Assembly: GCA_002721305.1 (NCBI GenBank)
Contig: PBKA01000015.1
Span: forward strand, 1 to 64,000
DNA length: 64,000 nucleotides
Origin: Acidimicrobiaceae bacterium
Lineage (GTDB): Bacteria > Actinomycetota > Acidimicrobiia > Acidimicrobiales > Poriferisodalaceae
Direction: 5' to 3'
The translations under genes and the position numbers were made by a program. A model generated the notes under the pieces. That model was not told the origin of the DNA. It saw nothing but the letters and a program-made list of their open reading frames with translations, and did not search any database. Shown piece after piece: positions 52,512-59,206 of the stretch. How positions within the stretch are numbered: the stretch's first letter is position 1; every line of letters begins with the position of its first letter.

Positions 52512-53333
52512 TTAGGTTTCGAGAACGAGACGTGCGACGACGTCGGTGCCGAACGCGGTCAAAATCGCTAGGTAGAGAAGCCCCGTGGCTGCCATGACTG
52601 CCGCATATTGACGTTCACGTAACGCGGCGCGGGTGGCAAGCACCAGTGCTCCAGTGGTCAGGGCGCACGCAACCCAGAACCATCCAAGCATTCCTCCGTA
52701 GCTATCGTCTATTTCGCCGGAGAGAACCGAGAACATGCCGGTTGGGATTAGTAAGAGACCGACCTCGATGGGCCAGAGTTTTCCAAGCCAAGAGACTTGT
52801 TCGATGAGAGGTTCTCTTCGGAGTCCGGGTTGAACTAAGTACCAGTGTCCCAAGAGCATGGCATCGGTGACCGAACCCAAGAAAGCTGCGCCGATCAAAA
52901 CTCGAGCTGTCTGTAGCAACTCGTTTCCTCCGCCTCCGAGTCCCGCCGCTATGAGACCCACCAGACCAGCGATGGGGGCGGCGAGATCCCATTGCGGGTC
53001 ATACCTGCGATGCGTTTGTTGTGGCTGAGGTGATTGGCTTGCCTCCTTCGTGGGTCGCCCGGTTATCGATAGCAACAGTGTGCCTGCGGCAGTGACTGCG
53101 ACCACAACAGCCGCTACATCTCGAATGGGTTCCGAAGCCCACCCGAAGCCCGCTACCGCTGCCAAAACGGCAATGGCTGCATAGGTCGATCTCAGGAGCC
53201 ATCCATAGCCGGGACCAACTTCTTTACGACGGGTGGTGACCCACAAAAATAGGAGTCCGCCGGTTGCCCATTGCAGCAACACTGTTGCGGCATCAAGCTG
53301 GGGACCGGCTGGCATCGTCGGAAGTGTAGTCAC
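52512..53333 (-). CDS. Multi-spanning membrane protein of unknown function
   Basis: 273 residues with about eight hydrophobic segments, for example VLLQWATGGLLFLWVTT, STYAAIAVLAAVAGFGWA, VAAVVVAVTAAGTLLLSI and a final AAVMAATGLLYLAILTAFG. A short polar loop (KEASQSPQPQQTHRRYDPQWD) divides it in the middle, suggesting two similar halves. No catalytic or transport motif recognised. It starts 14 bases after the lipB-lipA fusion gene on the same strand and is probably in its operon. Confidence 0.72.
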   Translation of the reverse strand: MTTLPTMPAGPQLDAATVLLQWATGGLLFLWVTTRRKEVGPGYGWLLRSTYAAIAVLAAVAGFGWASEPIRDVAAVVVAVTAAGTLLLSITGRPTKEASQSPQPQQTHRRYDPQWDLAAPIAGLVGLIAAGLGGGGNELLQTARVLIGAAFLGSVTDAMLLGHWYLVQPGLRREPLIEQVSWLGKLWPIEVGLLLIPTGMFSVLSGEIDDSYGGMLGWFWVACALTTGALVLATRAALRERQYAAVMAATGLLYLAILTAFGTDVVARLVLET

Positions 53334-53346
53334 CGGGTGGTGAAAG

Positions 53347-55023
53347 TTAGACCGTGGTGGTGATCGATTGAAGACCCCGGGCCGCCTTGTGGCTCGAACG
53401 AGTGAGCGGCCCGGCTTCTACGTGTTGTATGCCGAGTTCGCGGGCGTGGCCGGCTAGGACTTCGAATGTTTTGGGATCCACCCATCGTTGGACTGGCAAG
53501 TGTTTGCTAGTTGGTCGGAGATATTGGCCTATTGTCACGATGCTGACACCAACAGCCGATAAGTCTCCTAGCGCGGAAACCAGTTCGTCGTCGGTTTCGC
53601 CTAGTCCTGTCATGATCCCTGATTTTGTTATGGAGCCGTGCCCGTGTGCCCGAGCCAATAGGGTGAGGCTTCGGGCGTAGCTGGAGTTGGTTCTGACGGC
53701 ACGTTGGAGTCTCGCGACGGTTTCTAGGTTGTGGTTGACCACGTCGGGCTGCGCTGCGAGCACTGCCTCTAAAGGGCTTGTTTTCCCTGCAAAGTCGGGA
53801 ATAAGAGTCTCGATCGTGGTGTGGGGGGTCTTGGCGCGGATTGCTTTCAAAGTTTCTACAAATCCGCCGGCGCCTCCGTCTTCTAGGTCGTCGCGGGCTA
53901 CCGCTGTGATGACGACGTGACTCAGACCCATTTTGACAATTGCTTCTGCGACTCGGTGCGGTTCTTCTTTGTCCAGGGGCTCGGGTTGTTGGGTATCTAC
54001 CAGACAGAAACCGCAGGCACGAGTGCAGCGGCTTCCGTTGATCATGAAGGTTGCGGTGCCCTCACCCCAGCATTCGTAAATGTTGGGGCATCCGGCTTCT
54101 TCGCACACCGTTGTTAGTTCGAGGTTGCGCAATGTTGACCGCACTCGTCGGTATCCGTCGTTGAGTTCGACGCGGGTTTTCATCCATTCGGGTTTTCGCT
54201 CCGTGATCGATAGTCCCTCTGAGAGACCTGTTGCATCAAGCCTTCGTTGTCGTCCTTTGGTCGGTTTACGATCTCGTAAAAGGACTTTTACTTCACCCCT
54301 TTGGGTGGTCGTTCCACTGTCGGGGGGTTGAAATGTGTCCACCTTCTTCGTGCGTTGCGGAAACGCAGTTACTGCTATATCAGATCCTTCGTTTCCCCAG
54401 GTCTCAATCGCTCTAGCGGATATTTTCTCGACGACTTCACGCATGGAGGCGTGTATGCCTTCGTTTCGTAAATTCGTGACTGATAGTTCCTTGATGCCGC
54501 ATGGCACTATGTGGTCGAACCATGACAGGTCTGTGGTGGCGTTAAGAGCGAAGCCATGCATGGTTCGACCTCGACTCAATCGGACCCCGATCGCCGCAAC
54601 TTTCCTTGGTCGTTTGCTGGTGGGGGCGACCCAGACGCCCGGGTATCGGGTCATTCGACCGCAGTTCTCGAGCCCTAGGTCGTTGAGTGCGTCAATAAGA
54701 ACTTGTTCGACCTGATGAACGTAGTCCCTAGTCTCAGCGAGTCCACCGCCTCTCCGACCGGGTAGCGACAACACTGGATAGCCGGTGACCTGTCCTGGTC
54801 CGTGGTAGGTGATGTCGCCGCCGCGGTTGGTCGACTCATAGGTGGCTCCCACTGTTGATGGGTCAATGAGAAGGTTCGAGAGGTCTGTATTGGGGCCGCC
54901 AGTGAAAACGTGTTGGTGCTCCATCAAGAGGAGGTGGTCGTCCTGGCTGGATTCGAAGAGTCGTTGCTGGAGGTCGCGCGCTTCTTGGTAATCAACGCGA
55001 CCCAACCATCGGACCCGAAGCAT
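53347..55023 (-). CDS. lipB-lipA: LipB-LipA fusion: octanoyltransferase + lipoyl synthase in one polypeptide
   Basis: 558 residues in one open frame. Residues 1-225 are LipB, which moves octanoyl from acyl carrier protein to target lysines; the catalytic pair is K141 (RKVAAIGVR) and C175 (IVPCGI). A basic linker of about 50 residues follows. Residues 280-558 are LipA, a radical-SAM enzyme that inserts two sulfurs. Its auxiliary cluster cysteines are C307, C312 and C318 (CEEAGCPNIYEC), the SAM-cluster cysteines C333, C337 and C340 (CTRACGFC), and the conserved RSS motif is at 542-544. Both halves have all the key residues, so a bifunctional lipoylation enzyme is likely. Dihydrolipoamide dehydrogenase is encoded 53 bases upstream in the same direction. 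Confidence 0.96.
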   Translation of the reverse strand: MLRVRWLGRVDYQEARDLQQRLFESSQDDHLLLMEHQHVFTGGPNTDLSNLLIDPSTVGATYESTNRGGDITYHGPGQVTGYPVLSLPGRRGGGLAETRDYVHQVEQVLIDALNDLGLENCGRMTRYPGVWVAPTSKRPRKVAAIGVRLSRGRTMHGFALNATTDLSWFDHIVPCGIKELSVTNLRNEGIHASMREVVEKISARAIETWGNEGSDIAVTAFPQRTKKVDTFQPPDSGTTTQRGEVKVLLRDRKPTKGRQRRLDATGLSEGLSITERKPEWMKTRVELNDGYRRVRSTLRNLELTTVCEEAGCPNIYECWGEGTATFMINGSRCTRACGFCLVDTQQPEPLDKEEPHRVAEAIVKMGLSHVVITAVARDDLEDGGAGGFVETLKAIRAKTPHTTIETLIPDFAGKTSPLEAVLAAQPDVVNHNLETVARLQRAVRTNSSYARSLTLLARAHGHGSITKSGIMTGLGETDDELVSALGDLSAVGVSIVTIGQYLRPTSKHLPVQRWVDPKTFEVLAGHARELGIQHVEAGPLTRSSHKAARGLQSITTTV

Positions 55024-55075: not shown

Positions 55076-56479
55076 TCATCCGTGGAGGGTCCGACCTGCC
55101 ATCTCCAGGACCGCTTCACCGAAGAGCTCTGAGAGCGTGGGGTGGGGTTGGATGAATTCGGCAATTTCATCGATTTCGATTTCCCAGTTGACGGCTAAAT
55201 AACCTTGGCTCAGCTGCTCTGTGGCTCGGGGGCCGATGAGATGGACTCCTAGTAGCTGACCTGCTGTTCCATCGGAGCGGCGCTCGGCGACGAGTTTGAC
55301 AATGCCCTCAGTTTCATTGTGAATTAGCGCTCGTGCATTTCCAGCGAATCGGTGTTGCGTTGTGACGACGTCGTATCCGGCATGGGTTGCTTGTTCTTCG
55401 GTCATGCCGGCGTACGCGATTTCGGGATGACAGTAGATTGCCCACGCAACCCTCGAATAATTGGTGGGCTTCGGATTTTCGCCCAATATGTCGCGAACGG
55501 CCACCATGGCTTCGGCGAATCCGACGTGTGCTAACTGGGGTGTCGAAATCACATCTCCTATGGCGTAGACACCTTCGCAGTTGGTTCGACAGAGTTCGTC
55601 AACCACCACGAATCCGTCATCGTCGAGTCTTATTGCAGTATCCGCTAACCCAAGGTGGTCGGTATAAGGTCTTCTTCCAACACAGACGATGACTTTTTCG
55701 ACGTCTAGTTCTGTCTCGTCGGTCAGATGAACGACGGTGCCTTCTTGGTGTGGGCTGTGTCTGTCCGCCGAAACGCCTGTGACCACATCGATGCCTCTCT
55801 TTTTGAAGGAGCGCTCTAGAGATTTCGCTATGTCGATGTCGGTTCCGGGAACCAGTCCTTCGGTTGCTTCCAAAATGGTGACCTGTGTTCCCAAGTCGGA
55901 CAGCATGGAGGCAAATTCACAGCCGGTGGCTCCTCCACCAATGATGGCGGCACTGTTGGGCAAGCTTTTGAGTTCTAGCAATTCGTCAGACGCCAAAACG
56001 GTGTCGCCGTCAATGTCGAAACCCGGAAGGGTTTTGGGTTGAGAACCGGCGGCTACCACGACAAAGTTGCCAGTCAAGAGTTGTTTATTTCCGTCATTGA
56101 AAGTGACTTCAACATTTCGATCACCGGCCAACTTTCCGGTTCCCTCAAATACGTTGATGTCTTTGCTAGCTACTAGATGGGTTATCCCTTTGAATAGTCG
56201 GTCAACGACGGCCTGTTTTCGGGCTTGGGCTGCGGAGAAGTCGACAACTGGTTCATTGGTGTTGATCCCAAATTCTCCGGCTTGTGTAACGGTGCGGTGG
56301 ACTGCAGCTGTCTCTAAGAGTTCCTTAGCGGGTATGCATCCTCGATGCAGGCAAGTGCCACCAATGCGGTCCCGTTCGATCAGAGCGACATTTAGGTCCG
56401 ATGCCACTGCGGTAAAAGCGGCGGCGTAGCCGGCGGGTCCTCCCCCGATGACAACTAGATCAAAGTCGTTGGAAGTCAT
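55076..56479 (-). CDS. lpd: Dihydrolipoyl dehydrogenase (E3)
   Basis: 467 residues. FAD-binding GGGPAGYAAA, the redox disulfide C43/C48 in GGTCLHRGCIP, NAD-binding IGGGATGCEFA and the C-terminal catalytic HPTLSELFGE are all present, so this is a true E3. It regenerates the oxidised lipoyl group of 2-oxoacid dehydrogenase complexes and the glycine cleavage system. Placement just upstream of the LipB-LipA fusion makes a lipoate unit. A tiny membrane-peptide gene lies 66 bases before it on the same strand. Confidence 0.95.
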   Translation of the reverse strand: MTSNDFDLVVIGGGPAGYAAAFTAVASDLNVALIERDRIGGTCLHRGCIPAKELLETAAVHRTVTQAGEFGINTNEPVVDFSAAQARKQAVVDRLFKGITHLVASKDINVFEGTGKLAGDRNVEVTFNDGNKQLLTGNFVVVAAGSQPKTLPGFDIDGDTVLASDELLELKSLPNSAAIIGGGATGCEFASMLSDLGTQVTILEATEGLVPGTDIDIAKSLERSFKKRGIDVVTGVSADRHSPHQEGTVVHLTDETELDVEKVIVCVGRRPYTDHLGLADTAIRLDDDGFVVVDELCRTNCEGVYAIGDVISTPQLAHVGFAEAMVAVRDILGENPKPTNYSRVAWAIYCHPEIAYAGMTEEQATHAGYDVVTTQHRFAGNARALIHNETEGIVKLVAERRSDGTAGQLLGVHLIGPRATEQLSQGYLAVNWEIEIDEIAEFIQPHPTLSELFGEAVLEMAGRTLHG

Positions 56480-58201: not shown

Positions 58202-59206
58202 TTAGTCGGGTTCGATGACCCATACGTCTTCTTCGAATTGGCGTTCAAGTTTTTTTTGTAGCTCCCCTAGCGTCCGATCTTTGGGGTTGCGAACGAGTAC
58301 GGCTTCATTGGCTAGTCGAATTATCGTGTCGTCGCGTCGACCCATCGCTTTTCCGAATTCGTTGCCGGTTTTTGGTGCCTCATCGTTGGCAATCGTGACG
58401 GATCGGGCCCCGGACAGCAGTTCGTGGAAACGTTTCTGTGTGGCGTCAGGCCAGCGTTCTTCCATGCCCTCGAATGCGAGGACGACCGCATAGGGAACTG
58501 CTGCGGCGGCCGCTGCTTCCGCTCCCAACATTTCGGCTCCTAAGCCAATGCCGGTTATTACCTGAAGGTCGGGATGCATTTCTACTTTCGCTCTGAGCAG
58601 ATCAATTATTCGTCGGCGCACCGAAAGGGTTGTCGAATTTTCTCCGTAGCCGCCAAGTTCTGGGGGCCGGTGTCCGAAGACTGCGACGCTGTGGGCTGTG
58701 TCTACGATTGCGTTATCTGCCGTGGAGGGCCGATCCCCTTGGAGGCCTCGGACGATTGCGTCCGTGAAAATTCCCCCGGATTGGCTTGCTTGTTGCGCTG
58801 CGGCGGTTGTCGCGAGCTGGTCGGCTGCCTCGTTGAGGCGGTGACCCGCGTGACCTTTTACCCAGACGAATTCAACGTCGCCTCGAGCGTTGACCAACTC
58901 AATGAACGGCTCCCATAGATCTCGGTTCGCTACTGGTTCTTTCTTCGAGTTCTTCCAGTCTCGCTTGAGCCACCCTTTCCACCACTCCTGGACAAAACAA
59001 TTGACCACGTATGTGGAGTCACTGTGAACCCGGAGGGAACCATCAAGGGTTTGCACCGCTGCGCTTGCGGCCATGAGTTCCATCCGCTGGTTCGTTGTGT
59101 GGGGGTCGAAGCCTGATGACCACAGGCCTTGGTCAACAACAAACGCCCAACCGCCAGGTCCGGGGTTACCCAGACAGGCTCCATCGGTATATACGTCGGT
59201 GGTCAT
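58202..59206 (-). CDS. rnhA: RNase HI fused to a YpsA-like SLOG domain
   Basis: 334 residues. Residues 1-135 are RNase HI with the catalytic acids D8 (YTDGACLGNPGPGG), E43 (RMELMAA), D63 (HSDSTYVVN) and D129 (NEAADQLA). Residues about 173-305 form a Rossmann-like domain with VAVFGHRPPELGGYG, VITGIGLGAEMLGAEAA, and DEAPKTGNEFGKAMGRRDDTIIRLAN. This matches the YpsA/DUF1273 branch of the SLOG superfamily, which is thought to sense or process nucleotide-derived ligands. RNase HI removes RNA from RNA-DNA hybrids. The combination suggests nucleotide-ligand control of, or cooperation with, R-loop processing. Both domains appear complete. Confidence 0.9.
   Translation of the reverse strand: MTTDVYTDGACLGNPGPGGWAFVVDQGLWSSGFDPHTTNQRMELMAASAAVQTLDGSLRVHSDSTYVVNCFVQEWWKGWLKRDWKNSKKEPVANRDLWEPFIELVNARGDVEFVWVKGHAGHRLNEAADQLATTAAAQQASQSGGIFTDAIVRGLQGDRPSTADNAIVDTAHSVAVFGHRPPELGGYGENSTTLSVRRRIIDLLRAKVEMHPDLQVITGIGLGAEMLGAEAAAAAAVPYAVVLAFEGMEERWPDATQKRFHELLSGARSVTIANDEAPKTGNEFGKAMGRRDDTIIRLANEAVLVRNPKDRTLGELQKKLERQFEEDVWVIEPD

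Follow-up and report, generated by a model that had tools for sequence, protein, structure and literature searches.

A LipB-LipA fusion as a probable one-chain enzyme for de novo lipoylation in the class Acidimicrobiia

In the draft genome of an Acidimicrobiaceae bacterium, octanoyltransferase (LipB) and lipoyl synthase (LipA) are encoded by a single gene, here called lipBA. We consider it highly probable that the product is a bifunctional lipoate-assembly enzyme performing both steps of de novo lipoylation, which came from the fusion of adjacent genes early in Acidimicrobiia; the two activities themselves are very likely from what is known of the families. Since the same fusion occurs throughout the class, it is probably an old, stable, bifunctional enzyme and not a sequencing accident.

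LipB and LipA both belong to textbook families, and their established chemistry consists of the transfer of an octanoyl group to a carrier followed by sulfur insertion. For the human enzymes, the order is octanoate transfer to a carrier protein first and sulfur insertion on this carrier second (PMC12246082). For lipBA, the LipB half would transfer octanoate from acyl carrier protein to a thioester at C175, with K141 assisting, and from there to the lysine that is modified on a lipoyl carrier protein; in this genome the glycine-cleavage H protein is the most likely carrier. The auxiliary iron-sulfur cluster of the LipA half would then provide two sulfurs, to be inserted into the same client by radical-SAM chemistry.

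Automatic database annotation of LipB-LipA fused proteins probably exists, and for this reason our claim is limited to an undescribed variant: neither the architecture nor its spread over the class is described in the literature searched, and lipBA is a variant of known enzymes, not a new system. That literature, on LipA/LipB, fusion and Acidimicrobiia, did not describe a LipB-LipA fusion, and none is described in the passages on lipoylation enzymes of PMC10332631, which discusses LplA/LplB fusions and LipB distribution. lipBA is of interest because the complete path of de novo lipoylation would run on one naturally occurring chain that a bacterial class has retained, which makes the sharing of a client by LipB and LipA directly testable. 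The pre-joined enzyme would also be a useful part for one-pot lipoylation, and possession of the fusion can be used as a marker of Acidimicrobiia.

The fused gene and its two halves

The gene lies in the window, i.e. the whole stretch of 64,000 nucleotides that was analysed, and its features are collected in Table 1. It begins with ATG and runs on the minus strand for 558 codons without a stop, and the initial annotation of LipB and LipA in one chain of this length is borne out by this frame together with the scores against curated profiles. The LipB half reaches 173.8 bits against NF010925 (cut-off 155) and 133.2 bits against TIGR00214 (cut-off 83.55), the LipA half 342.1 bits against TIGR00510 (cut-off 310.25), and the Pfam families LplA-B_cat, LIAS_N and Radical_SAM are each matched above cut-off.

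Table 1. Features of the lipBA region in the window
Feature	Coordinates	Strand	Evidence
273-aa hydrophobic protein	52512-53333	-	no NCBIfam or Pfam match
lipBA, fused octanoyltransferase-lipoyl synthase, 558 aa	53347-55023	-	one open frame; NCBIfam and Pfam matches to both families
LipA half with N-terminal extension, residues 261-558	53350-54243	-	TIGR00510 at residues 272-548; 5exk fold
Linker, residues 211-260	54244-54393	-	residues 224-252 predicted disordered; poorly conserved
LipB half, residues 1-210, catalytic K141/C175	54394-55023	-	NF010925 at residues 2-206; 1w66 fold
lpd, dihydrolipoyl dehydrogenase	55076-56479	-	TIGR01350, 473.2 bits (cut-off 408.8)
RNase HI fused to YpsA/SLOG-family domain	58202-59206	-	PF00075, 126 bits; PF06908, 32.5 bits (cut-off 27.7)

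Both halves had also been credited with complete catalytic residues, and these were found at the positions named, each of them invariant (100%) in 104 distinct fused proteins: the LipB pair K141 and C175, and in LipA the auxiliary-cluster cysteines C307, C312 and C318, the SAM-cluster cysteines C333, C337 and C340, and the motif R542-S543-S544. The proteins number 104 and not 109, the number of fused loci, because some contigs occur both among the named loci and among the whole-genome loci. Median identity of the fused relatives to the window's protein is 53% in LipB and 59% in LipA, and 14% in the linker. Judged from sequence, the LipB half thus has what is expected of an octanoyltransferase (curated-model scores, catalytic lysine and cysteine), and the LipA half what is expected of a lipoyl synthase (equivalog score, auxiliary cysteines, CxxxCxxC and RSS motif).

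With stand-alone LipB (TIGR00214/NF010925; M. tuberculosis 1w66), lipBA has the catalytic domain, the lysine/cysteine pair and the fold in common, and with stand-alone LipA (TIGR00510; 5exk, 8v0j) the auxiliary and SAM-cluster cysteines, the RSS motif and the fold. The M. tuberculosis LipB is a separate enzyme, whereas the C-terminus of LipB in lipBA continues into LipA; likewise LipA 5exk and LIAS 8v0j are separate enzymes, whereas the N-terminus of LipA in lipBA is joined to LipB. The nearest described fusion is the model NF053790 (LplA_LipA_fuse, bifunctional lipoate-protein ligase/lipoyl synthase), which also has a lipoate-attachment enzyme N-terminal to LipA, but its first half is named LplA while that of lipBA is LipB. 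Membership of lipBA in this family was rejected: it reaches 348.4 bits where the cut-off is 800, and its match is confined to profile positions 330-605, the LipA part.

Spread and origin of the fusion in Acidimicrobiia

The window's genome (1.94 Mb, 31 contigs, 89% complete) contains lipBA as the sole match to either half, and the LipB half is the sole LplA/B-type catalytic domain found in it; a search for stand-alone lipA and lipB genes elsewhere in this 89% complete draft found none. The taxonomic spread of the domain pair turned out to be the whole class. Matches, mostly full-length and in a single frame, were found in 59 of 61 genomes (the own genome and 60 relatives), and a class-wide sample of good-quality Acidimicrobiia genomes gave 105 of 109. 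We re-read 160 loci, of which 109, including that of the window, are fused in one stop-free frame; among the Acidimicrobiia-type loci with both halves that were compared in detail, all 109 of 109 are fused in this way. The nearest named relative comes from a contig labelled 'Candidatus Microthrix sp. UBA6944' and is 77% identical. Viral copies of the fusion were searched for and none was found. In plasmid records, lipA and lipB are named, where annotated, only as separate genes, and the high-coverage matches there are each joined from two pieces.

The comparison of fused and split loci covered Actinomycetota. In members outside the class (Dietzia, Rhodococcus, Streptomyces and others), one or two stops or a frame change lie between the halves, and some of these loci have just one half inside the fetched stretch. 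The pairs of Dietzia, Rhodococcus and Streptomyces thus share both the gene order and the two enzymes with lipBA, but their halves are separated by at least one stop or frame change where lipBA is one frame. Because lipB and lipA are usually neighbours in the unfused Actinomycetota, loss of the stop between them would be the simplest route to the fusion. A branch with support 89/70 has the fused proteins on one side in the LipB tree. The LipA tree needs two changes, since five unfused proteins, all from one other family, branch beside the Actinomarina-like fused group. A single origin is therefore likely but not firm, and adjacent lipB and lipA would have been joined in a single event, or in very few, early in the history of the class.

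A few class members depart from the rule. One genome, 85% complete, has a frame with LipB only and no LipA was found in it (G148); three others are without the fusion and carry an LplA/LipM-like gene (G116, G120 and G200), which adjoins gcvH in G200; in G159, where LipA lies close to the end of a contig, gcvH has an LplA/LipM-like gene beside it; and in G155 an LplA/B-type match is found only below threshold. At loci L171 and L178, from class members in which no LipB-LipA fusion was found, gcvH is followed by an LplA/LipM-like gene, a pairing that perhaps represents an alternative lipoylation route. Genome G110 has the fusion and also, at locus L173, a further pair of lipB and lipA as separate genes next to an E2 gene; horizontal gain or contamination is suggested for this pair. 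A contig labelled Bifidobacterium breve (L100) carries an Acidimicrobiia-type fusion that falls inside Acidimicrobiia in the LipA tree, and it probably belongs to a mislabelled or contaminated assembly.

Linker, predicted structure and possible coupling of the halves

Across the fused relatives the linker varies from 12 to 72 residues in length and from -5 to +5 in net charge, with a median of 0. The linker of the window had been described as basic, which is right for this protein (+5), but as a defining trait the description is rejected and basicity is a local feature, given the range and the median among relatives. Conserved motifs flank the variable part, about D-L-x-x-F-x-R-G before it and R-L-x-x-A-G-V after it, ahead of R-K-P-x-W-M; the R-L-x-x-A-G-V motif coincides with the position of the LipA N-terminal extension in unfused relatives. 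A variable and mostly unconserved linker, seen at the sequence level, argues for a tether over a conserved tunnel made by the linker.

An AlphaFold2 model of lipBA built with 73 fused sequences has a pLDDT of 89.6 and a pTM of 0.89, with pLDDT below 50 solely at residues 224-252. The LipA half aligns with M. tuberculosis LipA 5exk over 300 residues at an rmsd of 2.1 (Z 42.5) and also matches human LIAS 8v0j (Z 40.8), and the LipB half aligns with M. tuberculosis LipB 1w66 over 199 residues at an rmsd of 1.8 (Z 29.4). By calculation, two well-folded but unplaced domains of such size are expected to give a pTM of about 0.53-0.61, so the model with its 0.89 claims a definite arrangement, and this pTM implies that the predicted placement of the halves relative to each other is confident. 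As a control, a read-through of the stop between the separate Dietzia genes had a pTM of 0.60; with its shallow alignment (27 rows) and a pLDDT of 73.3 it is not matched in depth, and so is no guide to whether such packing is special to the fusion. The fused halves may have a fixed arrangement, since AlphaFold2 places them with such confidence.

Whether there is one chain at all deserves attention, as an error of assembly or annotation (a missed stop or a frameshift), or an internal start yielding two proteins, could give the same appearance. The few in-frame GTG/ATG/TTG codons in the linker and the LipA N-terminus speak for an internal start. Starts with a Shine-Dalgarno-like site, however, occur in the linker of 31 of 103 loci against 41, 30 and 25 of 103 in control stretches, which is no enrichment across relatives, and the window has no convincing candidate. 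A missed stop or frameshift in the linker, named early on as a check on the fusion, is excluded because the same frame is open in 109 loci from independent assemblies, among them the single-contig genomes G038, G042 and G062. We regard any such artefact or internal start as extremely unlikely; that the chain also stays uncut in the cell is presumed with uncertainty.

Two further accounts are versions of the same bifunctional enzyme, so that the weight given to each is conditional on bifunctionality. The fusion would keep LipB and LipA at 1:1 and close together, which would make it more likely for one client to encounter the two sites, and a functional benefit from this proximity is plausible; a kinetic advantage, or the direct hand-over proposed in the initial annotation, is uncertain. 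One account takes the fusion as passive: a stop was lost between co-transcribed genes, and the link would only let the halves be co-expressed in equal amounts without coupling their functions. The prior adjacency of lipB and lipA in unfused Actinomycetota and the poor conservation of the linker agree with it, whereas no split Acidimicrobiia locus with both halves was seen, save the extra pair in G110, and the halves are predicted to pack confidently; we take it as moderately probable. In the other account the octanoylated carrier crosses directly from the site of LipB to that of LipA over a fixed interface and is not released on the way. The confident placement of the halves in the model, their staying joined across the class and the short motifs conserved on both sides of the linker point in this direction, but the linker length ranges widely and a client which is itself a folded protein could equally diffuse between the sites. 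Strict channelling from LipB to LipA is thus possible but unproven, and we judge it rather unlikely.

Probable operon partners and lipoyl acceptors

The initial annotation had put the gene directly after lpd, and this is so: lpd is the next gene upstream, 52 bp away and in the same orientation, and it is a probable operon partner of lipBA. An upstream lpd on the same strand was seen in 54 fused loci, and lpd lies upstream in 29 of 29 fused loci with at least 4.5 kb of upstream sequence. In 24 of these 29, E2, a dihydrolipoyl acyltransferase with an N-terminal lipoyl domain, stands directly upstream of lipBA with lpd before it, the usual order in fused loci being lpd - E2 - lipBA (e.g. L085 and L009). 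Of the five loci without E2, four are the closest relatives of the window and have lpd directly before lipBA.

The E2 catalytic domain PF00198 was absent in the window's genome and in 10 of 11 others from its own and two related genera, the exception being one fragmented genome (G001), and it is present in those genera whose operon has retained E2; the window's lineage seems to have lost all E2 proteins. One clear H protein was found in each of the 15 genomes tested, and the other biotin/lipoyl-type domains found in the window's genome sit in carboxylase or small carrier proteins. With PF00198 missing, the H protein present and the other domains so placed, the H protein would be the sole lipoyl acceptor found in the draft genomes of this lineage, which may then have about the simplest natural lipoylation system. 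That lipBA acts here as a fixed two-site machine handing the carrier from LipB to LipA, with the H protein as its single client after the loss of E2, we regard as quite improbable.

Two other genes occur around lipBA. Of the 91 fused loci examined, 51 have a homologue of the 273-residue hydrophobic protein near lipBA, and this protein is possibly a conserved, uncharacterised partner. Relatives of the protein joining RNase HI to a YpsA/SLOG-family domain also lie near lipBA in several fused loci.
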